The translations under genes and the position numbers were made by a program. A stretch of 24,540 nucleotides of DNA from a virus: positions 1 to 24,540 of IMG/VR virus record IMGVR_UViG_3300044641_007670; one strand, written 5' to 3'. Of the stretch, positions 4,298 through 24,540 are shown piece after piece. Below the pieces are notes generated by a model, which had not been told where the DNA came from, did no database searches, and saw only the letters and a list, made by a program, of their open reading frames with translations. Numbering within the stretch: the first letter of the stretch is position 1; each line of letters starts with the position of its first letter.

Positions 4298-5770
4298 TTA
4301 GAGGTATGTAGCTGCTGTACCAGGTGTAAATGACTGACCCAAGCCGGTGCAGACTATCATGTGATAGTACAGTGAAGCACCGAAGATGTGGTCTACAACG
4401 CCGTAACGGGTTAAGAGACCAACACGTGGTGAGAAGTCATTTGGACCGATTGTACGTTGAACCATGACAGGGATATATGGGCAGTATACGATACCAGTAT
4501 CGTAGTACTCAGGGCCCTTATAACCTAACAGAGCATAATCAACTGTGCGTGGGCGTGGGTTGGCGTAGCCAGCGTTTGCGTAGCTTGCAGTTGTTTGTGC
4601 TTCTGTGCGTGTGTCACGATAGATCTGGAAGCGGCCACCTACTGAACCAACCTTAGCGATACCTACAGGTGCAGTATTTACTGAACCAGTTACAGGCATC
4701 CAGGTGAAGTTAGGAAGTGTCTCGAGGATTGCGCAGATACGAGGTGTAGCGATGATGAAGTTAGCAGCGCCACGACGGTTGCGGATAGCAACACGGTTAG
4801 CTTCAACAACAACTCTGTTGTAGAAGTCACGGGCACGCTCACCTGACCAACGGCCGTCAGCTGATACAGCTGACCATACTGAATAACCGACGCCAGCGCC
4901 AGCATTCAAGCATGTTTGGATCATACGAGCAATCATTTCGCGGTCGATTTCAGCTTGAATTTCATATGACATAGCATTTGTTAATTCAGCGTCGATATCG
5001 ATACCGTTCATGTTCTTCAGATCTTGTTCGAGTTCAACAGACCATTTAGCTGCGAGGCGGCGTGTGCCAGCTTCAACAGCGGTCTTTTCAAACGAGACAG
5101 TTACTTGTGGGATATTTGATGTGAGCTCAAATTGTGAGATAAGAGCTGCAACACCTGTATCTTCAGCGAGGAATGCTGACAGACCGCCGATAGAAGTGTC
5201 GTTAACACCTGAAAGCTTAGCACTGGATGTACCAGTGAAAGTTGTGTTCAGGTAGTTATAACCGATTTCTTTGCCGTCTGGGCCAGATGCACCAACAGGT
5301 ACAACACCAAGAGGTGCTGTAGCTGATGATGAGCCGTCGCCACCAGTACCTGAAGCATTACCGAGAGGTGTTGTTTCGTACTTGTAGCGCATTGCGAATG
5401 CTAAGCCAACAGGACCAGTCATAGGCTGTACACCCACGATCTCATTTGTGATGAGCTCAGGGAATGTACGGCGAATCATTGGAATGAGGACTTTTGGCAA
5501 ACGGGCGTCACCTGTTGCGTATGTATCGGCACTGAATTGGTTGGCTGTGTTTGAGCCACCGCCAGCAAATGAGTTAGGACCGAATACCCCGCCACTGTTG
5601 TAACTTTGCTCAAAGCACCATTTTTCTTGGTTCTCAAGAAGGATGGCTGTGTTTAAGCGTGTGTGCTCGTCGTTAATAGCTGCAACTTTGTCTGAAGTGT
5701 AATCCAATACTGGTGTCCACTTTTCAACTAAAGATTCAGCTCTGTTTTTATCGATGTGCAGAAGTTCCAT
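4298..5770 (-). CDS. gp23: Major capsid protein (T4 gp23-like)
   Basis: A 490-aa protein, close to T4 gp23 (521 aa), that would form the capsid hexamers around the gp22 scaffold. The clearest match is KVLIPMIRRTFPELITNEIV followed by GVQPMTGPVGLAFAMRYKYE (about residues 93-132); T4 gp23 has the same motif of an RR-x-P-x-LI stretch and GVQPM..P.G. The N-terminus also aligns, with an ENQEKW box at about residues 46-51 matching ENQEKD of T4, and this region is probably removed by gp21 during maturation. It is the last gene of gp21 - gp67-like - gp22 - gp23 and ends at a strong terminator. Unlike its neighbours it has a real Shine-Dalgarno sequence, and its coding sequence is visibly richer in G+C (29 of 60 bases at 4321-4380). 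Both fit very high expression. Confidence 0.97.
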   Translation of the reverse strand: MELLHIDKNRAESLVEKWTPVLDYTSDKVAAINDEHTRLNTAILLENQEKWCFEQSYNSGGVFGPNSFAGGGSNTANQFSADTYATGDARLPKVLIPMIRRTFPELITNEIVGVQPMTGPVGLAFAMRYKYETTPLGNASGTGGDGSSSATAPLGVVPVGASGPDGKEIGYNYLNTTFTGTSSAKLSGVNDTSIGGLSAFLAEDTGVAALISQFELTSNIPQVTVSFEKTAVEAGTRRLAAKWSVELEQDLKNMNGIDIDAELTNAMSYEIQAEIDREMIARMIQTCLNAGAGVGYSVWSAVSADGRWSGERARDFYNRVVVEANRVAIRNRRGAANFIIATPRICAILETLPNFTWMPVTGSVNTAPVGIAKVGSVGGRFQIYRDTRTEAQTTASYANAGYANPRPRTVDYALLGYKGPEYYDTGIVYCPYIPVMVQRTIGPNDFSPRVGLLTRYGVVDHIFGASLYYHMIVCTGLGQSFTPGTAATYL

Positions 5771-7727: not shown

Positions 7728-8606
7728 ATGTTTACAGCATTGTTAGCCTTTACGGCATTACTTGTAGCTGGGTGTGGTGCCTATTTTTCCGTACTCGGTA
7801 TAGCAACACTATTTTCTGGTCATTTCTGGCAGGTGGCTATTATGGCAGGATCTCTTGAACTGGGTAAATTAGTCGCCACCTCTTTCTTGTATCGTTACTG
7901 GAAGAAGATTATTTGGTTTCTTAAACTGTATATGATAGCAGCCGTACTAGTGCTCATGGTTATTACATCAATGGGTATTTTTGGTTACCTTTCATCAGGT
8001 TATCAAGTTAATGCAGGTAAGACTGAATTAATTGATAATAAGGTTTCTCTTATTGAACAACAAAAGACAAATATTAAAAATGAAATTGACCAGATTAACG
8101 CGCGTATTACTACGCTTAATGAGGCTCGTAAATCTCAAGAAGCTCGTCTCCCGCAAATGTCACGCCGCTCTGCAGCACCCGTCTATGAAGACATGGCAAG
8201 AGCTGCAGAAGAGATTAAAGGTCTAACAGCAAGAGCACAAGAACTTCAAACAACGGTTTTTGAAAAGGATAATGAACTTATTACATTGAGTAGTGAAGGT
8301 AACGAGGTACATGATATTGGTACTTTTAAATTTGTAGCTGAATCAGTTGGCTTACCTCTCGATACAGTTGTAAAGATTTTTATTATCTGTATTGTTTTAG
8401 TATTTGATCCTTTAGCTGTAGCTTTAGTATTAGCTTATAATATTGCTCGAGGTGGTTCGGTATTAAAAGAAACTAAAACAAAACAACTTTTAGTTGATGA
8501 ACCAATTCCTGCACAGCCTAAAACTAAAACAATTATAACAGAAGAGATTATTGAAGAGGTAGTTCCTGATTCAGGAAAGACGAGAAAGTATTCTTCAAAG
8601 CCCTAA
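7728..8606 (+). CDS. Phage inner-membrane protein with central coiled coil
   Basis: A 292-aa protein with three N-terminal hydrophobic segments (about residues 4-27, 33-55 and 64-90). A Glu/Lys/Gln-rich coiled coil follows at about 98-195, then a fourth membrane segment at about 212-240 (FIICIVLVFDPLAVALVLAY) and a charged, Lys/Glu-rich soluble tail. The segment pattern, including AIMAGSLELGKLVATSFLYR and MVITSMGIFGYLS, matches a membrane-protein type I remember from many marine T4-like phages; no function is established there as far as I know. It sits on the strand opposite the virion genes, so it is probably not a virion part. A role at the host envelope (lysis control, exclusion or membrane remodelling) is speculation. 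No holin or spanin signature was recognised. The endonuclease gene follows in the same frame, only 9 bases after its stop. Confidence 0.88.
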   Translation: MFTALLAFTALLVAGCGAYFSVLGIATLFSGHFWQVAIMAGSLELGKLVATSFLYRYWKKIIWFLKLYMIAAVLVLMVITSMGIFGYLSSGYQVNAGKTELIDNKVSLIEQQKTNIKNEIDQINARITTLNEARKSQEARLPQMSRRSAAPVYEDMARAAEEIKGLTARAQELQTTVFEKDNELITLSSEGNEVHDIGTFKFVAESVGLPLDTVVKIFIICIVLVFDPLAVALVLAYNIARGGSVLKETKTKQLLVDEPIPAQPKTKTIITEEIIEEVVPDSGKTRKYSSKP

Positions 8607-8615
8607 ATTAGATCA

Positions 8616-9404
8616 TTGTTTAGCTGCACGTTTTGCTTAAATAATTACGTGCAAAAAGGTACAGGGTTAACATACGAGCAACGTCAAGAGCGGTTTAATA
8701 GACACATTAAGCCATTAATATTACAAAATTTAACTGTATCGGAAATTACTAATCATATTAATTTAAAACCAACTCAAATAAGGGTTGAATGTAATAATTT
8801 TTGTTCAAAAGAACTTTTAAAATTATTACGGTATAACACTCGTAAAAGAGTAAATACTGTCTTAGGGGATAATGTTCGAAGAAAAGAAAAAAGCAAACAA
8901 AGATATTTTAAAATTATACAGCCTTTAATATGGGAAGGTTTAACAGCAATAGATATAACTAAAAAGCTAAAATTAAAAGCACCAAGTGTTGTAAGATTTG
9001 ATACTAGAAAGTATGGAACAGAAGAAGATAATATGCAGTTAAAGTTAAATGGTATTATTAAAAAAAGAAACACTTTAATAAAGCTTATTACTACAAAGAC
9101 TAGTAGACCAGAAAAAGATTTATATCAAATAGCATTAAGGTATTTTCCAACTGCTCAACACAAATACAAAATTTTAAGTGATAAAAATTATTTTTGGGAA
9201 CTTGATATCGCTATACCTGAATTAAAATTAAATTTTGAATATGATGGTTATCATTGGCACAAAAATCAAGAAAAAAGAGAATTAATAAGAGACAATTTCT
9301 TAAAACAGAATGGATGGAAGGTTTTTAGATTTAAATACGGTGAATCACCGTCGTATGATATATTAGAACAAGCATTTAAAGACCAAGTTCTTTCTCAGTT
9401 ATAA
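8616..9404 (+). CDS. Vsr/EDxHD-like homing endonuclease with duplicated helix-turn-helix
   Basis: A 262-aa frame starting at TTG 8616, the first usable start after the preceding stop; GTG at 8649 is an alternative. The C-terminal domain (about residues 160-262) has the Vsr-like nuclease pattern: SRPEKDLY, then WELDIAIPELKLNFEYDGYH with WH next, then RDNFLKQNGWKVFRFKY. Candidate catalytic residues are E166, D197, E208/D210, H213/H215 and D226. The N-terminal half carries two related helix-turn-helix units (about 26-60 and 96-132; LILQNLTVSEITNHINLK and LIWEGLTAIDITKKLKLK) and a lone CTFC pair at 4-7. It would cut a specific phage site and spread its own gene. The gene is very AT-rich, lies on the plus strand inside a structural region, and overlaps the end of gp4 tail-to-tail by 29 bases, all in line with an inserted mobile gene. 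No intron was seen. Confidence 0.85.
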   Translation: MFSCTFCLNNYVQKGTGLTYEQRQERFNRHIKPLILQNLTVSEITNHINLKPTQIRVECNNFCSKELLKLLRYNTRKRVNTVLGDNVRRKEKSKQRYFKIIQPLIWEGLTAIDITKKLKLKAPSVVRFDTRKYGTEEDNMQLKLNGIIKKRNTLIKLITTKTSRPEKDLYQIALRYFPTAQHKYKILSDKNYFWELDIAIPELKLNFEYDGYHWHKNQEKRELIRDNFLKQNGWKVFRFKYGESPSYDILEQAFKDQVLSQL

Positions 9405-10108: not shown

Positions 10109-10969
10109 TTATCCAATAAAGAACATCGCTCCGGTGACGTCTTCGTAAGTATTTTTTAATTCAGATTCTAAGGCGTCTCTTTCTGAAAGACCTTGAGACA
10201 TAAAGTCAGAGTAGTTTACTTGACCACCGCCAAAGAGATTTGTACCACCATATTTGCCTCTAACATTACCTACAATAATTTTGCAAAGAGCTAAGGTATA
10301 GCGGTATATCCATCTTTCGTTAATCAAATCTTTTATTGGTCTTTCCAAGTAACAACCCACAACACCGAGGTAAGATTGTTCTGGAATAGGTTCTGGTATA
10401 ATTCTTAAAACCTGACTTTTAGGGTCAAATCTGTAATGTGGAGTCATGGCAAGAACTTTATTTCTTGTATCAATAAAACCTTTAAGTACTTCCCAAGTTA
10501 TAAGATCAAATCCGAAGTTACCAATCATATAACTAGAATAGATTTGCTGTGCCATAGCTTGTTCTAAAGTGAATAATGTATTAATACCTGTTGTTTCGCC
10601 GTAGGTAAAAGAAAAACAATCAAGCACTCTTCTATAAGAATTTAAATCGTAATCGTATCCAGCTGATAAACCAGGGGTAATAGACTTGTACATTTCAGGT
10701 GTTTGATTTATAAGTGTAGCAACATCTATACCAACACCTCTTACATATTTTGTTGAATCAAAAATTAAAAACTCTTCTGTATACCCGGCATACTTTGTAA
10801 AGAATTCCATAGCTTGGGCAATACAATCATATATTTGTTCATTAGCTATTTCTACGTTAACTAAAGGTTCTCCCATTTGACGACGAATTCTATGAGCTAA
10901 TCCATCATAGCTTTTTATAATAGAATTAAAATTAGTAGATCCTGAGGTATAACGTGGTAATACGTTCAT
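10109..10969 (-). CDS. gp13: Neck protein (T4 gp13-like)
   Basis: A 286-aa protein (T4 gp13 is 309 aa). In T4, gp13 and gp14 form the neck closing the filled head and connecting the tail. Similarity rests on the N-terminal helix region IRRQMGEPLVNVEIANEQI followed by a helical stretch and EEFLIFDS, the pattern RxxLGEPxVxVExxDEQ seen in gp13-type proteins. Supporting features are the central LTPHYRFDPK-like strand region (MTPHYRFDPKSQVLRIIPEP), the ALCKIIVGNVRGKYGG helix, and the short hydrophobic end MFFIG. It lies directly downstream of the gp14-like gene (15-base gap). TTAAATAA precedes the ATG at 10969 by 4 bases. The assignment combines motif and context; a different T4-type connector protein is the main alternative. 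Confidence 0.78.
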   Translation of the reverse strand: MNVLPRYTSGSTNFNSIIKSYDGLAHRIRRQMGEPLVNVEIANEQIYDCIAQAMEFFTKYAGYTEEFLIFDSTKYVRGVGIDVATLINQTPEMYKSITPGLSAGYDYDLNSYRRVLDCFSFTYGETTGINTLFTLEQAMAQQIYSSYMIGNFGFDLITWEVLKGFIDTRNKVLAMTPHYRFDPKSQVLRIIPEPIPEQSYLGVVGCYLERPIKDLINERWIYRYTLALCKIIVGNVRGKYGGTNLFGGGQVNYSDFMSQGLSERDALESELKNTYEDVTGAMFFIG

Positions 10970-10984: not shown

Positions 10985-11698
10985 TTATAGTTCTTTTAAC
11001 CCGCCATAGTAACCATAAATTTCAGTTTTTTCTTTATTAGGTAAAGTGTCCTGGTCGACAATACATTTTGCTGCTTTATCGTTTGATTGCTCGTATGGTT
11101 GTACCAATTCTTCAGGGTTAGCTCCTCCAGCTTCTCTTCCATATTCTTCATCATCATTAAATTGCACATTAAGGGGCTCTCTTGGTGCACCAGGCTCGTA
11201 AGAGTATTCCCAACGTTTACATTTTATAACCCAAATATAATGACCCATAAGTTGATTGGCATTAAATTGTAAATTTTGATCATCTCGCTCAGTTATTTCA
11301 TATACAGGTGCACCTCTACCGCCGGGTCTGTCTCCAGCTCCACCGTATTCTTTTAATTCAATTAAATCTCCAGCCTTAGGTTCTCTATATTCTCCAAATG
11401 TTTCTTGAAATGATGATAAATGTAAAACACAAGTCATATCACAATCAGCCATAATACCAAACTTTGAAAGCATAATAGCATCGTTTGTAATATCTGTTAA
11501 CATTAAGATTGGACCTGCAGACATAAAAGGTGTTGTAGGGTCTTCTCCGTAAAGATAATAATGAGTAGAAAGAGTGTAACCGTGGGTGTAGTATGTTACT
11601 TCTGCACCATAGTGTTCTATTTGCTCTTTCCAATAGCCAGAGATTAATGTTCTCTCGTTATCGTTTTTTGTTTTGTCGAGATAACGAACTCTTTCCAT
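10985..11698 (-). CDS. gp14: Neck protein (T4 gp14-like)
   Basis: A 237-aa protein (T4 gp14 is 256 aa), a partner of gp13 in the T4 neck. The similarity is in the middle: VTYYTHGYTLSTHYYLYGED followed by PTTPFMSAGP, LSKFGIMADCDMTCVLHLSSF, EPKAGDLIELKEYG and VYEITERDDQN. These follow T4 gp14's order of YYVPR..V..D...GED, FSNFGMQVQDEVTLSI, P.EGDLIYFP and FEINWV. A Gly/Arg loop (GGAGDRPGGRGAP) interrupts the GDLI strand region. The C-terminal third is acidic and probably flexible. The ATG at 11698 comes one base after the previous gene's stop, so coupling is likely. Confidence 0.82.
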   Translation of the reverse strand: MERVRYLDKTKNDNERTLISGYWKEQIEHYGAEVTYYTHGYTLSTHYYLYGEDPTTPFMSAGPILMLTDITNDAIMLSKFGIMADCDMTCVLHLSSFQETFGEYREPKAGDLIELKEYGGAGDRPGGRGAPVYEITERDDQNLQFNANQLMGHYIWVIKCKRWEYSYEPGAPREPLNVQFNDDEEYGREAGGANPEELVQPYEQSNDKAAKCIVDQDTLPNKEKTEIYGYYGGLKEL

Positions 11699-14018: not shown

Positions 14019-15782
14019 TTATATATTAATTTGTACTAAACTTGGTATTGTTGTATTATCAGGTGCTGCATCAACACCTAATTGCCCGATACGCTCTCCA
14101 TCTGCTCCCCATGCTAAAACTTTCCCGGTATTTAAAAGAACTAAAAAGTTTGCAAAACGACCTACATCATTATTAGTGCTTCTAATTTCGACAGGGTAAC
14201 CTAAAGCAGGGTTAAATAAAACACGACGGAATGTTGAATTAATTCTTGTCGTAATACCACGACCAATTAGCCCTGTGCCACCGAAGCCTGCAGACCAAAG
14301 GTTATTTTGTGTATCTAAAACTAAAGTTGTTTTTTGTGTACCGTTACCCGCAACTACTACTTGTTTAACCTTTGCGCCTGCTAATAACCACGGCCAACTC
14401 GGATTAAATGTAACAGCTACTGTAGCTGTAGGTCTTCTTGCTTCACCTAAACCTAGTTGACCAGAAGAATTGTTACCCCAGCATTTTAATCTAAATCCGT
14501 CTTGTCCGTCTCTAATTAGTGCCCAACAAGTAATTGCTTGGGAGTCAGTATGGGTTGCAACATCTTCAATAAAATCTGAATCATCAAAACCTACTACTCG
14601 TGCAAATGAAATAAAGACGTTTGGAGTAGCATCTGCTTGTCCGCTACATGCACCACTAATATTTCTTCCTGCTGCATAAACAGTACCATCCTTTAAAGTT
14701 ACGAAAGTTGTTATATTGTCTTGTGTGCCACCAACGTGTATATTATTAACCTTATACCCAAAAGGTAAACCATTAATAAGTCGAAAGCTAGGTATATTTG
14801 CATTTGCTTGATTGTTATTACCTATACCTGCTTGACCATCTTGATTTCGACCTACTACATATAATTTGTCTCCTACGTCAACTGCAAAGGTTGTAGTAGC
14901 ATTTCGGTTGCCACCGGAAGCTATTTTACGCACCCTGCCACCAAAACCTCCTGCAGGAAAAGGGGTCGAGATAACTGCAGTTGTGTTAGATGCTAAAAGA
15001 CTTGCCTGATTGCGACCATTTGCCCCCCAAACAAACATTCTACCATCTTCAGTTAAAGCAAATATAGTAATTTGACTCGAGTTAGCACCTGACCCAGTAG
15101 AAAGCATTACGACCCGGTTACCCTCTAGTTTAGCTGCAGCATATCCTAGCGTAGGATTATCTGTTGTATTAATAGGAGTAGCGGTCTCTCCTACAACATT
15201 AATAAATTTAAAAACTGGTTCATTTCTTGTTGTTGTTCCTTGGCCAAGTTGCCCGAAACGGTTTTCTCCTGCTCCATACACCCGACCAAAAGTTGTAATT
15301 ACATATGTACAATTAAATTGGGAGTATACTCTATTAATACCTTCCCCTAATTCTAAAGGTGGATCAAAAGCAGCGATACGCGGGGTATAAACTCGCCGAT
15401 CTGCTAAACCCATACCTAATTCCCCGACTTTATTTTCTCCGCACGCTCTTAAAGATCCGTCGTCTAAAATAAAAAAGTTATTACGGCCTCCACCAGAATT
15501 ATCTCTTTGCTCTTCAAGACGGACAACCTTATATTGTTCAGCTCCAGGTATAACTATTTGAGATCTATTACCGTTTACTATTGCATTAACACCTCGACCA
15601 ACAAAGTTTAAAGTACCAACGTTCGTTCCTAATTGAACGCCCTCATCTTCAATAGTAACTCCAGTTTCTACTTGAAAATCACATATTGCTGTTTTTAAGG
15701 TTTCAAAATTACCGTTAATAGTAATTAAAGAATTACCGATACATTCATTACTTTGTATTGTTGTAATTTCAGGACAGGGCAT
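14019..15782 (-). CDS. RCC1-repeat beta-propeller fibre/adhesin protein
   Basis: A 587-aa protein. Residues 5-35 hold the same anchor as the 272-aa neighbour (NECIGNSLITINGNF). Residues 41-80 form a stalk-like GVTIEDEG...TLNFVGRGVNA element. From about 85 to the end, eight RCC1-type motifs of the form (V/L)xxxGxNxxGQLGxG are visible: at about 111 (RACGENKVGELGMG), 168 (VYGAGENRFGQLGQG), 249 (MFVWGANGRNQAS), 307 (LYVVGRNQDGQAGIG), 368 (VYAAGRNISGACSG), 432 (LKCWGNNSSGQLGLG), 495 (LWSAGFGGTGLIGRG) and 555 (VLAWGADGERIGQLG). Classical RCC1 has seven blades. No nucleotide-exchange role is expected in a phage; binding a surface ligand is more likely. A perfect TATAAATA lies 11 bases before the ATG. 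Confidence 0.88.
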   Translation of the reverse strand: MPCPEITTIQSNECIGNSLITINGNFETLKTAICDFQVETGVTIEDEGVQLGTNVGTLNFVGRGVNAIVNGNRSQIVIPGAEQYKVVRLEEQRDNSGGGRNNFFILDDGSLRACGENKVGELGMGLADRRVYTPRIAAFDPPLELGEGINRVYSQFNCTYVITTFGRVYGAGENRFGQLGQGTTTRNEPVFKFINVVGETATPINTTDNPTLGYAAAKLEGNRVVMLSTGSGANSSQITIFALTEDGRMFVWGANGRNQASLLASNTTAVISTPFPAGGFGGRVRKIASGGNRNATTTFAVDVGDKLYVVGRNQDGQAGIGNNNQANANIPSFRLINGLPFGYKVNNIHVGGTQDNITTFVTLKDGTVYAAGRNISGACSGQADATPNVFISFARVVGFDDSDFIEDVATHTDSQAITCWALIRDGQDGFRLKCWGNNSSGQLGLGEARRPTATVAVTFNPSWPWLLAGAKVKQVVVAGNGTQKTTLVLDTQNNLWSAGFGGTGLIGRGITTRINSTFRRVLFNPALGYPVEIRSTNNDVGRFANFLVLLNTGKVLAWGADGERIGQLGVDAAPDNTTIPSLVQINI

Positions 15783-15793
15783 ACAATTTTATA

Positions 15794-15801
15794 TATTTAT
15801 A
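15794..15801 (-). promoter_or_regulatory. Perfect T4 late promoter consensus TATAAATA
   Basis: The minus strand reads TATAAATA, identical to the T4 late -10 element, 11 bases before the ATG at 15782. A start site about 6 bases downstream would leave a leader of about 5 bases. Confidence 0.6.
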
Positions 15802-15802
15802 C

Positions 15803-18541
15803 TTAAGATTCATCAATGCAATTAGGGTCAAAATAATTTAACATAGACTTTAAGTTTTCCCAAAGATAATTTATATTTCTATTTATAACAGTTGAGGTTA
15901 CAATTTCATTTTGACCAATAAGAATTTGTTCTTTTGTGTATTTTGGTGGTTCAAAATCTTTGCATGAATTTAAGCCATAGATTAAAGAGTGTCTTAATAA
16001 TTCTATATTGTCCCAAAGTCTATGGAAACTACGGTTGTAAACCCAGTTTTGTATATACTCGTCTTTATGAATTAACAGTTCATTTAATGACCAATAAGTT
16101 TTTGGTAGATCTCCAACTATATTTTTTTGATCCATTACATCTATATATTTCAAGATTTTATCTCCAGAAATAATTAAAGTATTTCTATATTCATCTTGAT
16201 AGGCATCTCGAATACCAAAAGCACATTGTTTGTTATCAATTAAATATCCTGCAAAGGTTCCGGTTCTAAAATATCGCAGTACTGTGTTATCAAATATTAT
16301 ATATAAAATTTCTTTATTATAATTTGAATTAATTTTTAAAGGTTCTTTGTCTTGTATAATATTTGTAAAATCATATTCAAAATAAAACTCACCATTTGAT
16401 TTATATACTCTAACTTTATTTTTAGTTAAAACATGTATATTATTTTCACTATCAGCTGTCATACTAATAGGTGGGGTGCTACGTAGGCTATCATCTATAA
16501 TTGTTTGAAGCCAAGAACCTGTGTTTGAGTATTGCTTAACACATCTGTTACCGGTATCTGCTACCCAGACATTGTCTAAATTGTCTATACAAATATCATT
16601 AGGACGGGAGAATTTTGATGTAGATTTTGAAGTACCAAATCCGCCCCATGATAAGAATAATTCAAAGGGTACCGGATCAGTTAAATTAATATTGTATGAA
16701 GCTACTCTATTTAATGTGCCATCAATAACAAAAAGTTTATTAGTACTATCTAATGCTAATCCTCGTATATCTTTAAAAGCAAATAATTCATCAATTAACA
16801 TTCTCGAGGTTATAAAGGTTGCAGTATAGTCTGAAGATAAAACCTTTACTTCATTTTGTAAAGCCACATAAAGAATATTGTTGCGACTTACTATATCACG
16901 ATATATACAACGAGATACCGGGCTACAATTAACTATAGGGTTATAATATGTATTAATTTTGTTTATATTAACCTGCCAATCACCTTCATCGCATGCTGAT
17001 CCAACTAAAACAAGACCGTCCTTTGTGGTACATGGTTCAAAAATCCATTTTTTATTATATGCTCTATTCTTTTTTGTACTATCCCAGGTTATAGGAATAG
17101 TAGAAACATTTGATTTTCTTGAAATCCACTTCCAATCAATACAATATTTTCCAAGTCTATCAGGGTTTTGTACTGATGGTTTACAGGTATGTTGGTCCCA
17201 AGTACAGCAACTAGCTAAAGCGCCGGTAGTAGTAATTGTTGGAAAATTATCGTCAATAGCTTGTACATCATCCCATTTAACACCTATACCACCGTTCAAG
17301 CAATCTAGATCTTCCCAGGTATATGTCGGGCACTTATTTACAAACACCGGCACAGTGCCTAACCATCCATAAAATTCATCCGGTCCATCATTATAAGATC
17401 TGCCTCGAGTGTTAAGATATTCTAAGTTTTTATAGAATTTTTTAAATACAGAATTTATAGTATCTTCATTAACCCACTCATTAGGGGCAATATCAGGTTT
17501 TTCAGGCCATGGTAGAGTTAGTGGTGTTTTTTGTGTACGATAATTAGCAGTATCTATTATATCATACGTACCGATAACTTTTATTATATCAGTAAAGTTC
17601 GTAATAACGGGTACCCCGTTTGATGTTGCGAGGTAATAAACTGTACTTGTAACAGTTTTGTAACCAGGTATGTTATAAGTTGTAGATATATCATTATATA
17701 ACGTGCTACCCGATAGTGTAACAATTTGACCATTATCTAAATTAACAGTTATATAATCTACATTATTAAAGCCTAAAGAAATATTTTGGTAGTAAACCGG
17801 TGCACCTGTTAAAACATATCTATTAGATGTATAGAGACGAAAATCTCCACGAGATTCAAAACCACATATTCCTGCACCTTCATACAAATACTCTTTAACA
17901 TCCCAATCGAAAGGATAAGCAGAAATTGTAGTAAAAATTGTTTGGGTGCCCTGCAAATATAGGCCCATATTTTTGTAAATACTAAATGTATTTGGATTTA
18001 CACCACCTAAAAAGTATTGAAAATAATAATCAAAATCAGGATTACCTTCATCTCTATCTGAAGAAAGCTGCGTCTCAGTGACCCAATTTTCAGTCGAAAG
18101 AACCCATGTAAGTGGGCCGCCCCAACTATCATTTGGATCTCTCGCAGTGGCAGTAGCATTAGGTTCAAATAACCAAGTTTTCGGGTAAGGGCCCGGAGCA
18201 CTTGGTACTGTTCCAAATGCAGGGTCAGCGCTTGGAGCTGATAAACATATTGTTGTAGCCCATGAGGAGGGTTTACCTGTTAAGGTGCCTGAAATTTCTG
18301 TATAAGAAGGGGTAATTCCAAAAGGCTGAACTGTTACTGGCTCGGCTAAATGTTTAAATGTGCTCCATTTCCAATCCAAGTCGTATATACCATAACACCC
18401 ACCTATAACTTCACCTGCTTGACCTGATACCGAAAATCTTAAAGAGGCGGTATACTTTTTAAGTGTATCGTCTGTAGGAAGAAAATCAGGACATCTAATA
18501 AACCCTGTATTAAAAGTAGATGCCGGAGGAATGTAGCTCAC
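15803..18541 (-). CDS. Large structural protein with NHL-repeat propeller and Cys-rich centre
   Basis: A 912-aa protein starting at GTG 18541, which overlaps the TAG of the upstream gene by one base (TAGTG). The N-terminal half is beta-rich with a W/F-rich unit that recurs: LDWKWSTFK...KTWLFEPN (55-128) and IDWKWISRK...KKWIFEPC (468-504). Residues 404-545 are rich in Cys (thirteen by my count, including a CC pair). Residues ~545-805 look like an NHL-type propeller, the clearest blade being FSRPNDICIDNLDNVWVADT followed by GNRCVKQY (644-671). Others are DIRGLALDSTNKLFVID (591-607) and ISMTADSENNIHVL (692-705). Three helical units of the type N..(F/I)..LW.N(L/I) occur at 355-378, 832-858 and 884-905. 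Its role is probably adhesin or baseplate periphery; no enzyme motif was seen. Confidence 0.82.
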   Translation of the reverse strand: MSYIPPASTFNTGFIRCPDFLPTDDTLKKYTASLRFSVSGQAGEVIGGCYGIYDLDWKWSTFKHLAEPVTVQPFGITPSYTEISGTLTGKPSSWATTICLSAPSADPAFGTVPSAPGPYPKTWLFEPNATATARDPNDSWGGPLTWVLSTENWVTETQLSSDRDEGNPDFDYYFQYFLGGVNPNTFSIYKNMGLYLQGTQTIFTTISAYPFDWDVKEYLYEGAGICGFESRGDFRLYTSNRYVLTGAPVYYQNISLGFNNVDYITVNLDNGQIVTLSGSTLYNDISTTYNIPGYKTVTSTVYYLATSNGVPVITNFTDIIKVIGTYDIIDTANYRTQKTPLTLPWPEKPDIAPNEWVNEDTINSVFKKFYKNLEYLNTRGRSYNDGPDEFYGWLGTVPVFVNKCPTYTWEDLDCLNGGIGVKWDDVQAIDDNFPTITTTGALASCCTWDQHTCKPSVQNPDRLGKYCIDWKWISRKSNVSTIPITWDSTKKNRAYNKKWIFEPCTTKDGLVLVGSACDEGDWQVNINKINTYYNPIVNCSPVSRCIYRDIVSRNNILYVALQNEVKVLSSDYTATFITSRMLIDELFAFKDIRGLALDSTNKLFVIDGTLNRVASYNINLTDPVPFELFLSWGGFGTSKSTSKFSRPNDICIDNLDNVWVADTGNRCVKQYSNTGSWLQTIIDDSLRSTPPISMTADSENNIHVLTKNKVRVYKSNGEFYFEYDFTNIIQDKEPLKINSNYNKEILYIIFDNTVLRYFRTGTFAGYLIDNKQCAFGIRDAYQDEYRNTLIISGDKILKYIDVMDQKNIVGDLPKTYWSLNELLIHKDEYIQNWVYNRSFHRLWDNIELLRHSLIYGLNSCKDFEPPKYTKEQILIGQNEIVTSTVINRNINYLWENLKSMLNYFDPNCIDES

Positions 18542-21500
18542 TACTTCAATATTTTTTCTATATTTAAAAAGAAAGGGTACGGTAATAACTGACCAGTTGT
18601 ATCATTAAAGAAGTAGAACGGACCGGTAGATAGTATTACACCATCTGAAACTACTAAGTTTATGGGTACAGATGGATAATAGTCTAATTGAGTGGGTATA
18701 AAGACTCCGTATTTACCGTATGTAATACCCGCAGAAACTTCATATTTCAAAGTATCTTGTTCTATATTCCAAAAAAACTGTGTATTGCTTGGACCAGAAC
18801 CATCAGCACATAAGTTTATTAATTCAGTATGTCCTTCACCATAAAAACATGGACCAGGAGTTACTGTATAATTTTCACCGCCACCTATAGTAAAGGGCAG
18901 TGGGCCAAATGGCCCCACTTGTTGGCCAGATGATAAAAAGTAGTACTGCGGGTATGCAACAAAATCAGCTGTTAAAAATTGTGAAACAAAAATAACAGAT
19001 AGATCATTTGTAAGGGTGTGAGGAGTGTACCACGGTCTAAAGGAATCAAAAGTTGTATCTGCTGAAACAGTGACTTTTAGTGCGCTCATCATAGGTAAAT
19101 TTCCTACTGATAAAGAGCATATGGTAGTAAAAATTGTCGAAGATAAAAGAGGAACCTCTCTAAAGGGTTGTATTTGATTATTAAAGTGGAGAAAACTTTT
19201 AGTTGTGATAGATGTTCTTGGAGTATTAGCAGTACTTAAATATGGAACTGTAGGCCCTACAATGCCGTAGTTAAGTTGAGCGCCCCAAACAAATACATCA
19301 TCTTTACCTGCTGCATTTCCTGATACAGTAGTTTCATTCGTGGTAACTCCTAAAATAAGTTTATCAGTTTGTTGAGAAGTTAAAGTGAAAGAAGCGGTGC
19401 ATCGTCTCCAATCTCGAGCACCTTCTACCGGTATATCAATACTATTTACTCTACCTGTTGGTAGTAAATTTACTGAATAAAAAGGAAAATAATCTTTATA
19501 TCTTGTAAAGGTGCCTCCAATGAAAATTTGATCATCGTTTGCATTATTACCACTTAACACTATAGTATTAACTGAGTTACTAAATCCTTCAAGAGTATTA
19601 AAACTAGCATCTACAAGATTGTTAGATGTATTAATACGTAACAAATTATAATAAGGTGAAGACCCATAATTTGTAAAAGCACCACCAACATAAAGTCTGG
19701 AGCCGTCATTATTTAAAACTAAACTTTTAACAATACTTCCAGCTGCAAAACTATAATCGCTTATTTTGCCTCCAGTATTAGTTAAGCATATTAATCCGGG
19801 ACCTGCAGCTGCTCCATTTAAAGTACTAAAGTTACCACCAACATAAATTCGATCTCCTCCGGAGTTAATCACTATACTATTAACATATGTATTAATAGTT
19901 GTATCACCAAGACCGGGATTTAAACCAAGAGTGGTTAATCGTGTACCTTTATCGCTTGTTCTTACTAATTTTTGAGATCTACTAGAGCCTCTCCAATTAT
20001 TAAAGTCTCCACCAAGTAATATAGTTCCGGTTGTTGTAGTCGGGGCTTCAAATACCACGGTTCTAACACTTCTTCCAATACCAGCCCCTGTATTATTATT
20101 ATATGCTACCCCTGTACTAGTTGCTCCTCTAATATCATAAACGCTTGTTGGGACCTGGGCGCCGCTAGGGTATATAGGTATTATGCCGTGTCGAGGAGAT
20201 GCTCCATTATATGTACTAAAGGCCCCACCCGCAAAAATAATATTTCGTGTAGGATGATATTTAATAACATATACTTCACCGTTTGTACTACCAGTAAAAA
20301 ATGATGCAGAAGCCGGTTTACCAGCTCCCGGGCCTCCTCCGCCATTGCCTGTTAAGCAGGTAATATACGATACCGGGTTTCCGCGATACTCTGTAAATTT
20401 GCCACCGACATACATTACATCTGTACCTTTACCGTTTGATGATAATGCTATAGTGTTAACGAAGTTATTAAATCCTGATGGAGCGAAATTTTTTGTTTGT
20501 ACGTTGCCGCTAAGGTCCACTGCACAAATATAATTGACTGGTATATCATTACATTTAGTGAACTCACCACCAAAAAATATTGTTGAACCCGATAAAACTG
20601 CTACATTTACAGGTGCATCAAACTTAGCATTAAAAATAGCAGGGGATACTACTAAGTTTTCTAATTCAAATTTATCTATATTAACAGAGGTCCACTCACC
20701 AAAATTATACGCCACTTCTTGTTCTAAGTCAAAAATAGCATAGCCTTGGTTAAACCCTCCAAAATACAAATATTTACCACCTGAAGGGTAAGCAAAAACA
20801 GAATACGTATAATTTTGTGGTATTAAAGGACCTACATTCTTTGTAATTTCGTGTAAAACGTTTTTAATTGTACCAACATCAAATGTAATAGTATTATCAG
20901 TAGATGCTAAACCTAACTGAGATCGATCGATAGTAATGCCGTCTCCTACTTCAAAAAATCTTCCACCGTTTGTTATACCAATATTAGAAACTGTACTACT
21001 AGCAACACTAATAGTAAATACCGCACTTATACCGCTACCCGTTGTGGTATATTTTGTCATTGGTACAACGTATGAACTAGCATTAGCTAAAAACGTATCC
21101 GGTAAATCCGAAGAAAGAATATTAGTTATTGTATCTATTGTATTAAACGGAGTTGCACTTATAGGTACAAGCTTTGTTGCGGATAGCTTATTATCAGGGG
21201 CTACTCGAGAATCTGGAACAACAGTCATATTAGTAGCTGTTGTCCAGTTAGTGTTTCTAAAATTTTCGCTGTTGGTTAATAAATTTGTTAAGTTTAATAG
21301 AGAAGGGTTATAAACTGCAGATAGCCGAGCGTTATATAATGTATTATTTTGTTGAGCACGATAAAATACAGGGCTATAATCTGTATTTTCATAATTTATA
21401 TATAAAACTGGAGGCCTTATATTAGGAAAGGTATCATAAAATAAATCATATTTTGCTATACTTGTTATTTCTTCAACGGCGTTTAAATCTATATCCAAAT

Positions 21501-21828
21501 CAGCAAATCTTGCGCCTGATACCCAACCTGCGGATATAGTTGTGAATAATAGTTGATATTCTTCTGTTTGATAATCGTAAGTATCAGCAGATAATCTAAA
21601 GATCATACTACTAAGTAAACAAAAAAGTCCAGCAGATTCTGCAGGATATGCAGTGTTTGTAACAACGCTATGTGCCTGGATTAACGCATCATTAAAATAC
21701 CATTTTATAAATTCTTTGTCTTCTGTACCAAATGTAGTTTCTAGAAGAGCAACAGCTGATAACGATCTCACTATTGGTTCGTTATCATATCTTGCCGCAC
21801 TAATTTCTATGGTATCCAGAAGAGCCAT
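18541..21828 (-). CDS. Delta-60-repeat propeller inserted in a split jelly-roll; tail adhesin candidate
   Basis: A 1095-aa protein. Residues 1-175 are a helical/beta N-terminal domain of unknown type. Residues 182-400 start a domain I remember from many phage structural proteins (LLTNSENFRNTNWT, SATKLV, then NYTYSVFAYPSGGKYLYFGG and GYAIFDLE). Its second half (DWRRCTASFTLTSQ, then DDVFVWGAQLNYG) appears only at residues 806-855. Between them lie seven delta-60 (DUF5122-like) blades with the (Y/F)xGGxF(T/S/N) signature at about 417, 472, 530, 603, 661, 712 and 768. A smaller Gly-rich module (258-320) is also inserted in the first half. Residues 880-1095 form a beta-rich C-terminus. It was probably built by nesting domains and likely recognises the host. 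TTAAATAA lies 7 bases before the ATG. Confidence 0.85.
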   Translation of the reverse strand: MALLDTIEISAARYDNEPIVRSLSAVALLETTFGTEDKEFIKWYFNDALIQAHSVVTNTAYPAESAGLFCLLSSMIFRLSADTYDYQTEEYQLLFTTISAGWVSGARFADLDIDLNAVEEITSIAKYDLFYDTFPNIRPPVLYINYENTDYSPVFYRAQQNNTLYNARLSAVYNPSLLNLTNLLTNSENFRNTNWTTATNMTVVPDSRVAPDNKLSATKLVPISATPFNTIDTITNILSSDLPDTFLANASSYVVPMTKYTTTGSGISAVFTISVASSTVSNIGITNGGRFFEVGDGITIDRSQLGLASTDNTITFDVGTIKNVLHEITKNVGPLIPQNYTYSVFAYPSGGKYLYFGGFNQGYAIFDLEQEVAYNFGEWTSVNIDKFELENLVVSPAIFNAKFDAPVNVAVLSGSTIFFGGEFTKCNDIPVNYICAVDLSGNVQTKNFAPSGFNNFVNTIALSSNGKGTDVMYVGGKFTEYRGNPVSYITCLTGNGGGGPGAGKPASASFFTGSTNGEVYVIKYHPTRNIIFAGGAFSTYNGASPRHGIIPIYPSGAQVPTSVYDIRGATSTGVAYNNNTGAGIGRSVRTVVFEAPTTTTGTILLGGDFNNWRGSSRSQKLVRTSDKGTRLTTLGLNPGLGDTTINTYVNSIVINSGGDRIYVGGNFSTLNGAAAGPGLICLTNTGGKISDYSFAAGSIVKSLVLNNDGSRLYVGGAFTNYGSSPYYNLLRINTSNNLVDASFNTLEGFSNSVNTIVLSGNNANDDQIFIGGTFTRYKDYFPFYSVNLLPTGRVNSIDIPVEGARDWRRCTASFTLTSQQTDKLILGVTTNETTVSGNAAGKDDVFVWGAQLNYGIVGPTVPYLSTANTPRTSITTKSFLHFNNQIQPFREVPLLSSTIFTTICSLSVGNLPMMSALKVTVSADTTFDSFRPWYTPHTLTNDLSVIFVSQFLTADFVAYPQYYFLSSGQQVGPFGPLPFTIGGGENYTVTPGPCFYGEGHTELINLCADGSGPSNTQFFWNIEQDTLKYEVSAGITYGKYGVFIPTQLDYYPSVPINLVVSDGVILSTGPFYFFNDTTGQLLPYPFFLNIEKILK

Positions 21829-21835
21829 TTATAGA

Positions 21836-21843
21836 TTATTTAA
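21836..21843 (-). promoter_or_regulatory. TTAAATAA start-site motif
   Basis: The minus strand reads TTAAATAA 7 bases before the ATG at 21828, inside the 31-base gap after the LamG-like gene. Confidence 0.4.
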
Positions 21844-21859
21844 CTGTTTAAAATAAAAA

Positions 21860-24540
21860 TTACACCCATTCTATAGCAATTAATTCTGAATAAGTGGGTT
21901 TTATTTGTTCTACAGATTCTCTTATAGTTGATTCTATTAAAGAACGAGTGTTTTCATCAGTGGTATCAAGACCTGCAATTTTTATTTTAAAAAATGTACT
22001 TTTTGATCCTGGAGCTTTATGTTTAAAAAACCTATCAATAGCTTCTACATACTGAATTTGAGTAGTAGGTATATTCCAAAATATGTCTTGTGCTATAAAT
22101 TGAGCTCGAACAAACATATTTAAAAAGGTAGGATTAATAGCGTAGTCATATATTTTTATATTATCTATATAACCATCAAATATTAATGCGTGAGAGTTAA
22201 GTTCATTATTTAAATTATCAAACTTACCAGCTGGAGTACCAATAAATAAATCATTCTTTCGTAAATAACTTACGTTATAATTGCCTGGCAAAACTTTTTG
22301 ATCTCTTAAGCGAGTATCTACATATAACGATAGAGTTTGATTTTTATAGGTCCCTGTTATTAGATGCCATGAATCATTAGTTAGATATTGCACTGGAACC
22401 GAGACAGAAAATGTAGTTATAGGGGTACCCTTAATAGGTTTTTGAGCAGCTATTTTAAACTGCAATTGAGGGTTATTATTATATAACACTTTATTAAAAA
22501 TACGCTTCCATTCATATCCGGTAAAATCCCCTAACCCGTTAAAGCGCATTAAGCTTTTATCTTGTAGTTCGGGTGGTGATTGTTCAACGTTTGTTTTATC
22601 AGGTAGAATAGTAAATTTTTTGATATTACCTTCAAGAGTTACTTCATATAAAGTTTTATCATTATCATGATAAATTAAACAATACCACTCTTTTTCATTT
22701 TTAGAGCGATCATATGTGTAAATAAAACTTATATTTTTAGAGTCAAAACTATCTGATATGCCCGTCTCGAATGTTTGTAATATATTTTTAGTGGTTGAGC
22801 TTATTTTTGAAACAGAATTATTTTTATATAGTATCCAAATATTATTAAAAGGATCAATACCAATATTAGTACAATCTTCTATACCTGTTAGCTGTACGCC
22901 ATTACAGGTTAAAAAACCTGTATTATCAATTAACCATTTTTGATTAGTACTATCATATTTTACGTCTCTGCACGGAGATTCTGTAATAAAATTACCGTTA
23001 GTATCGTAAACAAATTTACCACCATAATCTACTGTAGTAGCTGTCAAGCTTAAATTCGGGAAACCAGATGCTTGAAATATGTTATTGTCTATCGTAATAA
23101 CTTCATTAAGGGCAAATAAACTACCACCTTCTGCTATATTAATAGTTTGAATTGCACTTAAACTATTAACTTCAACTATTAGAACAGCGCTTGCACCATT
23201 TCCGTTTGTAGTTATAGCTGATGAAGGAACCGTATATGAACCAGAAGCTATTTTAACACTTGTATTATATGAATATTTAAAATCTCTTAAAGAAAAATTA
23301 GTATTTTCACTATATGGTATTGAACTGACCCCTTGATATATTAAATTTGAGTCAAACAAATAAAGACTTTCGGTTGTTTGAAACAAGCTATAATTATTTT
23401 TATCAATTATAAATTGTTTGGGTTCTCCGTTTGTAATAAAAAGCTCACCGCTGCTTAATCGAGGAACTGCTAAAACATCCCCTATATGATTCATTTTATA
23501 AAATGAATTTGCACCGCCAACATCAAGAACTAATAATTCATGCTCACCGTTTATATTAACTTGTTTAGGTGAACTTAAATTAGTTGCTGTAAGTTCTGCA
23601 ATAATTGGTTGAGTGCTTTTATCTAAATAAACAAATCCCTCTTGATTAAACAAATATAAATGACCGTAAAATGTTTCTGGTACTACAAAGAAGGGATAAT
23701 ATTTTAAGTTATTATAAAAAATGCTATATCCACCGTAATTAAAATTACCAACTAATTGTGTTGCTGGTGCTGTTAACCAACTATCATTTTGTACCCAAAA
23801 ATTAAGAGTAAATTCGTTCTTTGAATTATATGTATCAGAGTAAAATACTCGAGCATCTATAAAATTATTATTTTTAAAATCTAAAACACTACGATCTGCT
23901 ACTTCTGGCTCATTTAAATTCAAAGCCCATTCGCTTTTAAAATTGTATATATAAGCTTTATTTTCATAAATTGATTCGTCTTTTGGAAATTCTGACCAAG
24001 ATTGAATATTAAGTTTTAAGGATGTGGATAGCGGTCCTGCAAAAGTATTAACTATTTCTTGAGCTGTTTTTTCGCCGCAATGATAATATTGATACCATAC
24101 TCCTGGTTCTAAATTAACTGTTGAAGGTATATCTTGAATAACTGGGTTGTTTATAGTATAGCTTTCATAGTTTGATTCACCGAGTAGAGCGTTACCATAT
24201 GTTATTTTACCAGGATTATAAAAACGATCTAACCATACTGGGGATTCCCCGGATAGAGAATATAACCAACTACACAGCCAAGTACCATCGGGTATATCAG
24301 TAGTTGTGCCCCATGGGGTAGTGTTGCCGTAGCCTCCTTGTTTTTTAAAAATACGGTCAGCCATGGCGGGTATTGGGCCTGGTGTTGCTCCTGCCCCAGC
24401 TAATTGACTTGAAGATAACTTTTGTGTATTAGTGAAGTAAGGTATATGGAAGTATGTTGCTTTATCTTTTTTAAAATTAATTTCTGAAACCTGAGATTGA
24501 TAACCTAAATGTATTTTATCGTAACCGCCTGTTTCGTTAG
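21860..24540 (-). CDS. LamG-like structural protein interrupted by propeller-like sequence, N-terminus beyond window
   Basis: The frame stays open from the stop at 21860 to the right edge. The ATG at 24364 is preceded by 58 in-frame codons without a stop (..NETGGYDKIHLGYQ..), so it is probably internal. Counting from that ATG: an aromatic N-terminal domain (TWLCSWLYS, VWLDRFYNPG), then the first half of a LamG/concanavalin-like fold (EFTLNFWVQ at 184, QLVGNFNYGGYSIFY at 203). Residues ~226-600 are propeller-like (for example CTNIGIDPFNNIWILYKNN at 498). The second LamG half follows: SWHLITGTYKNQTLSLYVDT (665-684), LFIGTPAG, and FDGYIDNIKIYDYAI (729-743). The C-terminus SESxxR-type helix and KPTYSELIAIEWV resemble ends of baseplate or fibre proteins. 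A small Gly-rich module (~376-446) is shared with the 1095-aa protein. Probably a host-contacting tail part. Confidence 0.8.
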   Translation of the reverse strand, partial: NETGGYDKIHLGYQSQVSEINFKKDKATYFHIPYFTNTQKLSSSQLAGAGATPGPIPAMADRIFKKQGGYGNTTPWGTTTDIPDGTWLCSWLYSLSGESPVWLDRFYNPGKITYGNALLGESNYESYTINNPVIQDIPSTVNLEPGVWYQYYHCGEKTAQEIVNTFAGPLSTSLKLNIQSWSEFPKDESIYENKAYIYNFKSEWALNLNEPEVADRSVLDFKNNNFIDARVFYSDTYNSKNEFTLNFWVQNDSWLTAPATQLVGNFNYGGYSIFYNNLKYYPFFVVPETFYGHLYLFNQEGFVYLDKSTQPIIAELTATNLSSPKQVNINGEHELLVLDVGGANSFYKMNHIGDVLAVPRLSSGELFITNGEPKQFIIDKNNYSLFQTTESLYLFDSNLIYQGVSSIPYSENTNFSLRDFKYSYNTSVKIASGSYTVPSSAITTNGNGASAVLIVEVNSLSAIQTINIAEGGSLFALNEVITIDNNIFQASGFPNLSLTATTVDYGGKFVYDTNGNFITESPCRDVKYDSTNQKWLIDNTGFLTCNGVQLTGIEDCTNIGIDPFNNIWILYKNNSVSKISSTTKNILQTFETGISDSFDSKNISFIYTYDRSKNEKEWYCLIYHDNDKTLYEVTLEGNIKKFTILPDKTNVEQSPPELQDKSLMRFNGLGDFTGYEWKRIFNKVLYNNNPQLQFKIAAQKPIKGTPITTFSVSVPVQYLTNDSWHLITGTYKNQTLSLYVDTRLRDQKVLPGNYNVSYLRKNDLFIGTPAGKFDNLNNELNSHALIFDGYIDNIKIYDYAINPTFLNMFVRAQFIAQDIFWNIPTTQIQYVEAIDRFFKHKAPGSKSTFFKIKIAGLDTTDENTRSLIESTIRESVEQIKPTYSELIAIEWV

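Follow-up and report, generated by a model that had tools for sequence, protein, structure and literature searches.

Four propeller genes of a T4-like phage probably belong to its outer baseplate and tail-fibre apparatus, in which the propellers of two proteins (P892 and P912) would be fixed parts while other proteins present exchangeable heads behind a shared N-terminal anchor. All four lie in the window, the 24.5-kb IMG/VR virus record analyzed here (Table 1), where T4-like structural genes occupy the left and middle of the minus strand and the propeller genes are transcribed just ahead of gp14. The capsid protein shares at most about 34% identity with those of cultured phages, with cyanophages as the best match; thus, the lineage is distant and uncultured. 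We compared the locus with about 40 relatives from IMG/VR (loci numbered L002 onward), and alignment-based scans found the 912-aa family at 39 loci and the 892-aa family at 54. A tblastn search of 50,697 phage records with P912, P892, P1095, and P587 gave zero matches.

Table 1. Features of the window, with coordinates, strand, and the basis of each assignment.
Feature	Position	Strand	Basis
Major capsid gp23	4298-5770	-	T4-like structural gene
Scaffold, protease gp21, head-closure protein	left/middle window	-	T4-like structural genes
gp13	10109-10969	-	T4-like structural gene
gp14	10985-11698	-	T4-like structural gene
P272, 272-aa second anchor protein, head differing from that of P587	13199..14017	-	anchor HMM E 1.7e-13
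P587, 587-aa anchor plus RCC1-propeller protein, putative tail fibre/spike	14019..15782	-	Pfam, PHROG
RCC1 propeller head of P587, residues 95-587	14022..15500	-	Pfam, motif spacing
N-terminal anchor of P587, residues 1-36, TTIQSNECIGNSLITINGNFETLK	15675..15782	-	shared 31-aa motif
P912, 912-aa conserved protein; C-terminal module of the ~2000-aa protein of relatives	15803..18541	-	
C-terminal helical repeats of P912, residues 811-907, candidate docking site	15821..16111	-	conservation
Fixed six-bladed NHL propeller of P912, residues 549-807	16121..16897	-	predicted model, fold match
P1095, 1095-aa protein; N-terminal module of the ~2000-aa protein of relatives	18541..21828	-	
P1095/P912 junction, 31-nt deletion; T_TTA_AAT at 18562-18568	18541..18568	-	
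Conserved scaffold part 2 of P1095, residues 900-1088	18565..19131	-	aligned in most relatives
Inserted domain of P1095, second half, about residues 795-890	19159..19446	-	
Optional seven-bladed DUF5122/Rax2 propeller of P1095, residues 381-778	19495..20688	-	Pfam, blade motifs
Inserted domain of P1095, first half, about residues 175-375	20704..21306	-	L049/L050 comparison
Conserved scaffold part 1 of P1095, residues 1-157	21358..21828	-	aligned in many insert-free relatives
P892, 892-aa LamG-plus-propeller protein, 5' cut at window edge	21860..24540	-	Pfam, model
Second half of P892 LamG, residues 688-803	22130..22477	-	Pfam
Fixed YVTN/WD40-like propeller of P892, residues ~280-675, inserted in LamG	22514..23701	-	model
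Clade-restricted sub-insertion in P892 propeller, residues 416-500	23039..23293	-	
First half of P892 LamG, residues 214-290	23669..23899	-	predicted strands + alignment

Two of the propellers are recognizable by Pfam and by their motifs. P587 falls into the RCC1 families (PF00415/PF13540), with matches to WD40_RLD (E 1.1e-43; 150.4 bits against a curated cut-off of 150), RCC1_2 (E 1.8e-21; 75.7 against 22), and RCC1 (E 1.9e-19; 70.4 against 21.7), RCC1-type glycine motifs from residue 115 to 499 at ~60 aa spacing, and a match to PHROG 4219 (E 2e-36). P1095 matches DUF5122 (E 1.7e-8) and the Rax2 propeller (E 2.8e-7), both over the cut-off, and carries exactly seven GGxF blade motifs between residues 420 and 771 with a spacing of 51-72; 2000 shuffles of P1095 gave a mean of 0.12 such motifs and a maximum of 3.

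The other two propellers come from AlphaFold2 models, built on alignments of 37-38 relatives. P912 has just one NHL repeat above the Pfam cut-off (E 1.2e-7). Its model (pLDDT 78.9, mostly >90 in the propeller region) arranges residues 549-807 as six four-stranded groups (24 strands), and this predicted structure matches the TRIM71 NHL propeller (Z 30.0, rmsd 2.4, 256 residues), placing it in the NHL fold. P892 reaches LamG in Pfam (E 2.5e-10) and no propeller family; in its model (pLDDT 79.8), a predicted propeller separates the two LamG halves and best matches the YVTN propeller 1l0q (Z 21.7, rmsd 2.6, 250 residues). The 834-aa ATG start listed for this edge protein is false, as relatives start 16 residues upstream of the window edge. 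A search of the PDB with the P892 profile returned antibody heavy chains (best E 3e-4), which we attribute to the composition of an over-represented family and not to homology.

A sequence-only reading of this DNA had described four adjacent genes with four different propeller architectures, and had proposed structure prediction as a check. The predicted models and their fold comparison confirmed propellers in P912 and P892, so that each of the four proteins has one: RCC1 and DUF5122 through Pfam and motifs, NHL and YVTN-like through structure. The four architectures reduce to three sequence classes, since the P892 and P912 propeller profiles are related (hhalign probability 94%, E 1.3e-7); the RCC1 and DUF5122 profiles match neither of them. 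The genes are four and adjacent in the window but three in relatives, where P1095 and P912 are fused.

Gene order places the block. In ten long relatives, gp25 lies upstream of it, and in both regions that could be read through, gp6 follows (phrog_219 E 3e-40; phmmer to P-SSM2 gp6 E 3.5e-23) and is itself followed by a gp7-position protein of ~1100-1360 aa with PKD and an NHL-like propeller. The full order is gp25-gp6-[~1100-1360 aa, propeller]-[~1670]-[~450, PKD]-[~305]-P892-P1095/P912-anchor proteins-P269-P192-gp14-gp13, with one to four anchor proteins per locus between P1095/P912 and P269. A fifth propeller thus probably lies just past the right window edge. P-SSM2 has the order gp25-gp6-gp7-gp8-...-gp13-gp14, and the interval there holds gp7, gp8, and unknown structural genes. 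With gp25-gp6 on one side and gp14-gp13 on the other, the synteny indicates that the propeller block is the baseplate-periphery/fibre interval of a T4-like phage, which agrees with the tail or baseplate setting first proposed from the sequence.

The P892 and P912 profiles gave no match in the P-SSM2 and phiM12 genomes, so it is gene order that supports the baseplate placement. A fold search for T4-like homologs of P892 and P912 (gp7-gp12, wac) had its output filled by propeller hits. The Pfam families Baseplate_J and Phage-Gp8 were not found in the 10 long relatives, the ~1670-aa and ~305-aa families had nothing significant in the PDB, and the ~1670-aa family had nothing significant among PHROGs.

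The propellers differ in how they are distributed among the relatives. The NHL propeller is kept in 83/83 P912-family ORFs and the P892 propeller in 82/83 P892-family ORFs, the exception being truncated (redundant copies counted in both). RCC1 occurs on at least five different host genes. The clade of the window carries it on the P587 anchor, L015 on an anchor of the P272 type, L029 on an anchor ORF that lies downstream of gp23, and L030 on another N-terminus; in L086 it sits inside a 1183-aa gene at the position of the ~305-aa gene. This last gene (L086:4577-8125) combines a YHYH domain (E 8e-32) with the RCC1 propeller (WD40_RLD E 3e-54). The P1095 scaffold occurs in nested states: alone, with the inserted domain, and with the domain and its propeller. 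Most relatives have only the ~370-aa scaffold, which aligns to residues 1-157 and/or 900-1088; L049 and L050 have residues 7-411 and ~802-1087 without the propeller; and in the window, L002, L003, L004, and L005, the inserted domain itself contains the DUF5122 propeller. In another clade, L084 carries a LamG domain plus DUF5122 at a different scaffold site. By parsimony on the P892 tree, RCC1 changed at least three times and DUF5122 at least twice, with at least two gains of DUF5122.

This distribution bears on the proposal that each of the four propellers is an interchangeable head for receptor binding on a common scaffold. The proposal holds for RCC1 and DUF5122, which are optional and relocatable and come and go among relatives, as the suggested comparison for propeller swapping would have it. 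The P892 propeller also evolves faster than its flanks (identity 0.34-0.36 vs 0.41-0.47 around it), and this lower conservation may reflect exposure to the host. However, the NHL and YVTN-like propellers are constant and related to each other, and we consider it unlikely that all four are interchangeable. Within the P892 propeller, the sub-insertion at residues 416-500 is missing from L004 and L006 and has an occupancy of 0.07 across 38 rows. A ~55-aa segment here (P892 ~433-488, about 23075-23242) is 45% identical to residues 230-285 of a 1963-aa protein of L004, and a segment of similar look lies near residues 255-315 of P1095; the proteins that share the ~55-aa segment are otherwise unrelated, and it is apparently a small mobile domain.

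The exchangeable heads are joined to an anchor that recurs across the family. P587 and P272, which has no Pfam match, have in common a ~31-residue N-terminal motif (ECIGNSL.TIN.NF), the profile of which matched 151 ORFs in relatives (internal in two of them). The anchored proteins number 68 after redundancy is removed, and their remainders form 23 head clusters. Pfam heads on the 53 that were scanned are RCC1 (6), Tail Collar (4), Gp53-like_C (2), pectate lyase (2), S74 chaperone (2), K1-lyase_C (1), and beta-helix (1), and the leading PHROG matches are mostly tail fibre or tail proteins. The anchored proteins therefore combine a constant N-terminal segment for putative attachment with exchangeable C-terminal heads. 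To judge from these sequences, RCC1 fills the slot that fibre or spike heads occupy elsewhere, and this sharing of the anchor is the strongest functional evidence. Searched against phage records, the anchor peptide gave chance-level matches only (E 4-6), and we found no solved relative of it. Three repeats of a helix motif in P912 (NE.V....IN..F..LW.NL..L; residues 352-384, 822-856, and 873-907) resemble one another by hhalign (93-95% in two pairwise comparisons and 34% in the remaining one). Their likeness to the anchor, suggestive by eye, did not hold up (hhalign 0.3-7%, no anchor-HMM match in P912).

Alternatively, the propellers could serve structure alone, as spacers or assembly discs of the kind found in the T7/SU10 nozzle, leaving recognition to other fibres. 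The structural core of the SU10 nozzle is a seven-bladed propeller with a fibre dock (PMC9509320), and two propellers of our block are likewise fixed. Yet RCC1 takes the anchored position that pectate-lyase, K1-lyase_C, and S74-type heads hold in other proteins, and its gain and loss resemble those of a specificity module, so we regard a structural role for all of the propellers as improbable.

Relatives L002-L005 encode the 1095- and 912-aa proteins as one fused ~2000-aa protein. The linker in the window has a 31-nt deletion that changes the reading frame and splits the two, and the stop TAG of P1095 overlaps the GTG start of P912 (TAGTGA). P912 is encoded alone in four other relatives with a start near the same residue, which makes the boundary a natural module edge. 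We also considered a programmed -1 ribosomal frameshift that would join the two frames into the protein of the relatives: the slippery heptamer T_TTA_AAT lies in frame ahead of the zero-frame stop, and ahead of the GTG, the -1 frame reads YRKNIEVVSY, which still matches YRNGIQVVSY of relatives. However, slippery heptamers are found at 1.3% of codons in the P1095 gene, giving about a one-in-five chance of one within the overlap, and no stimulatory RNA structure was found downstream (fold z +1.0). Support from the heptamer and the fold is thus not beyond chance, relatives have a single unbroken ORF by simple fusion, and the deletion, real or an assembly error, accounts for the split by itself. 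We doubt that frameshifting occurs here and rejected it.

We return to the reading of fixed propellers plus exchangeable heads. P892 and the P1095/P912 protein would be permanent parts of the baseplate periphery, their NHL and YVTN-like propellers serving as rigid structural or docking discs, for which the SU10 nozzle is a precedent (PMC9509320). The most conserved part of P912 is residues 811-907 (mean pairwise identity 0.55). P587 and P272, as fibres or spikes, would join the particle through the shared anchor with their heads at the other end; the RCC1 head of P587 most likely binds, or acts on, a host surface glycan or protein, and the DUF5122 propeller on the inserted P1095 domain would be a second optional head. 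Precedents for such recognition heads are phi11 Gp45 (PMC4901313), W70 RCC1 (PMC11370258), and the Rak2-like phages (PMC5259590). New heads could be gained when recombination replaces what follows the constant anchor or when a domain inserts into a loop of the scaffold, and their exchange would alter recognition by the phage and leave the machine unchanged. The virion location, anchor docking, and receptor binding are what we infer from the domains, gene order, shared anchor, and gain, loss, and relocation of heads.

Phage proteins with RCC1 propellers are also found in Vequintavirinae W70 and in Rak2-like GAP32 and 121Q (PHROG 4219), with many copies in 121Q (PMC11370258, PMC5259590), and Rak2-like phages encode both Kelch and RCC1 proteins (PMC5259590). 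That our RCC1 proteins are intracellular regulators is highly improbable: the PHROG category "DNA, RNA and nucleotide metabolism" is the sole support, whereas RCC1 shares anchor and position with tail-fibre heads, mass spectrometry detected three phrog_4219 RCC1 proteins in virions of W70 (PMC11370258), and GAP32 has an RCC1-like structural protein (PMC5259590). What differs here from W70, GAP32, and 121Q is that RCC1 lies within the baseplate/fibre interval of T4, behind a defined N-terminal anchor that lyase and S74 heads also use.

Other systems resemble parts of the block. The anchor-plus-head principle is already known, including from eCIS fibres with propeller heads: eBAP1-5 have a constant N-terminal anchor and many exchangeable C-terminal binding domains, some of them beta-propellers (PMC12923769), but the particle differs, and our ~31-residue motif is set beside eBAP by description only. 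phi11 Gp45 has a beta-propeller with a proposed glycan site in a baseplate receptor-binding protein (PMC4901313), although its propeller is five-bladed and the protein is a siphophage trimer with an N-terminal stem; in the T7/SU10 nozzle, a tail protein with a fibre dock and inserted domains contains a fixed propeller of seven blades (PMC9509320), but this is a podovirus nozzle. Both are likened to our proteins by description, not sequence. The T4-like block (gp25, gp6, gp7, gp8, gp9-12, gp13, gp14) shares gene order and identifiable gp25, gp6, gp13, and gp14, whereas P892, P912, and the ~1670-aa and ~305-aa genes have no recognized T4 homolog. The sequence-only reading knew of no earlier description of such a cluster. 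Propellers in phage virions were already known from W70 (PMC11370258), the phi11 receptor-binding protein (PMC4901313), and the SU10 nozzle (PMC9509320), but for the propeller density, the nested insertion, and this anchor, we found no description in the open-licence papers searched, only single propeller cases.

Several further features of the window concern its gene content and host. A plus-strand gene pair (7728-8606 and 8616-9404) breaks up the minus-strand structural block; one encodes a protein with N-terminal hydrophobic segments and keeps its position in relatives, and the other encodes a homing/HNH-type endonuclease that is missing from that spot in L002/L003. A 93-bp tandem repeat (2765-2948; 2 copies, 80% match) lies within the gene for a 655-aa virion structural protein (phrog_1645). 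Across 13 relatives and the window, leaders are A-rich; Shine-Dalgarno-like sequences precede 3/133 ATG starts in relatives, and gp23 is the clear exception among 12 window genes. The same test gave 5/19 for P-SSM2 and 9/21 for phiM12. This near-absence suggests a host that does not depend on Shine-Dalgarno sequences, such as Bacteroidota.

Altogether, it is possible, though we put this forward tentatively, that these phages form a T4-like lineage with a propeller-organized outer baseplate, in which duplicated NHL/YVTN propellers (in the gp7-position protein, P892, and P912) would form the docking discs of a fixed ring, on which swappable RCC1 and DUF5122 heads would be presented via an undescribed short anchor. 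The ~31-aa anchor is a concrete marker for finding exchangeable recognition heads across a large group of uncultured T4-like phages. RCC1 propellers, hitherto labeled chromosome-condensation regulators, appear here in the slot used by lyase-type spikes and S74-type fibres elsewhere in the family, and their role in phage virions is now directly testable.
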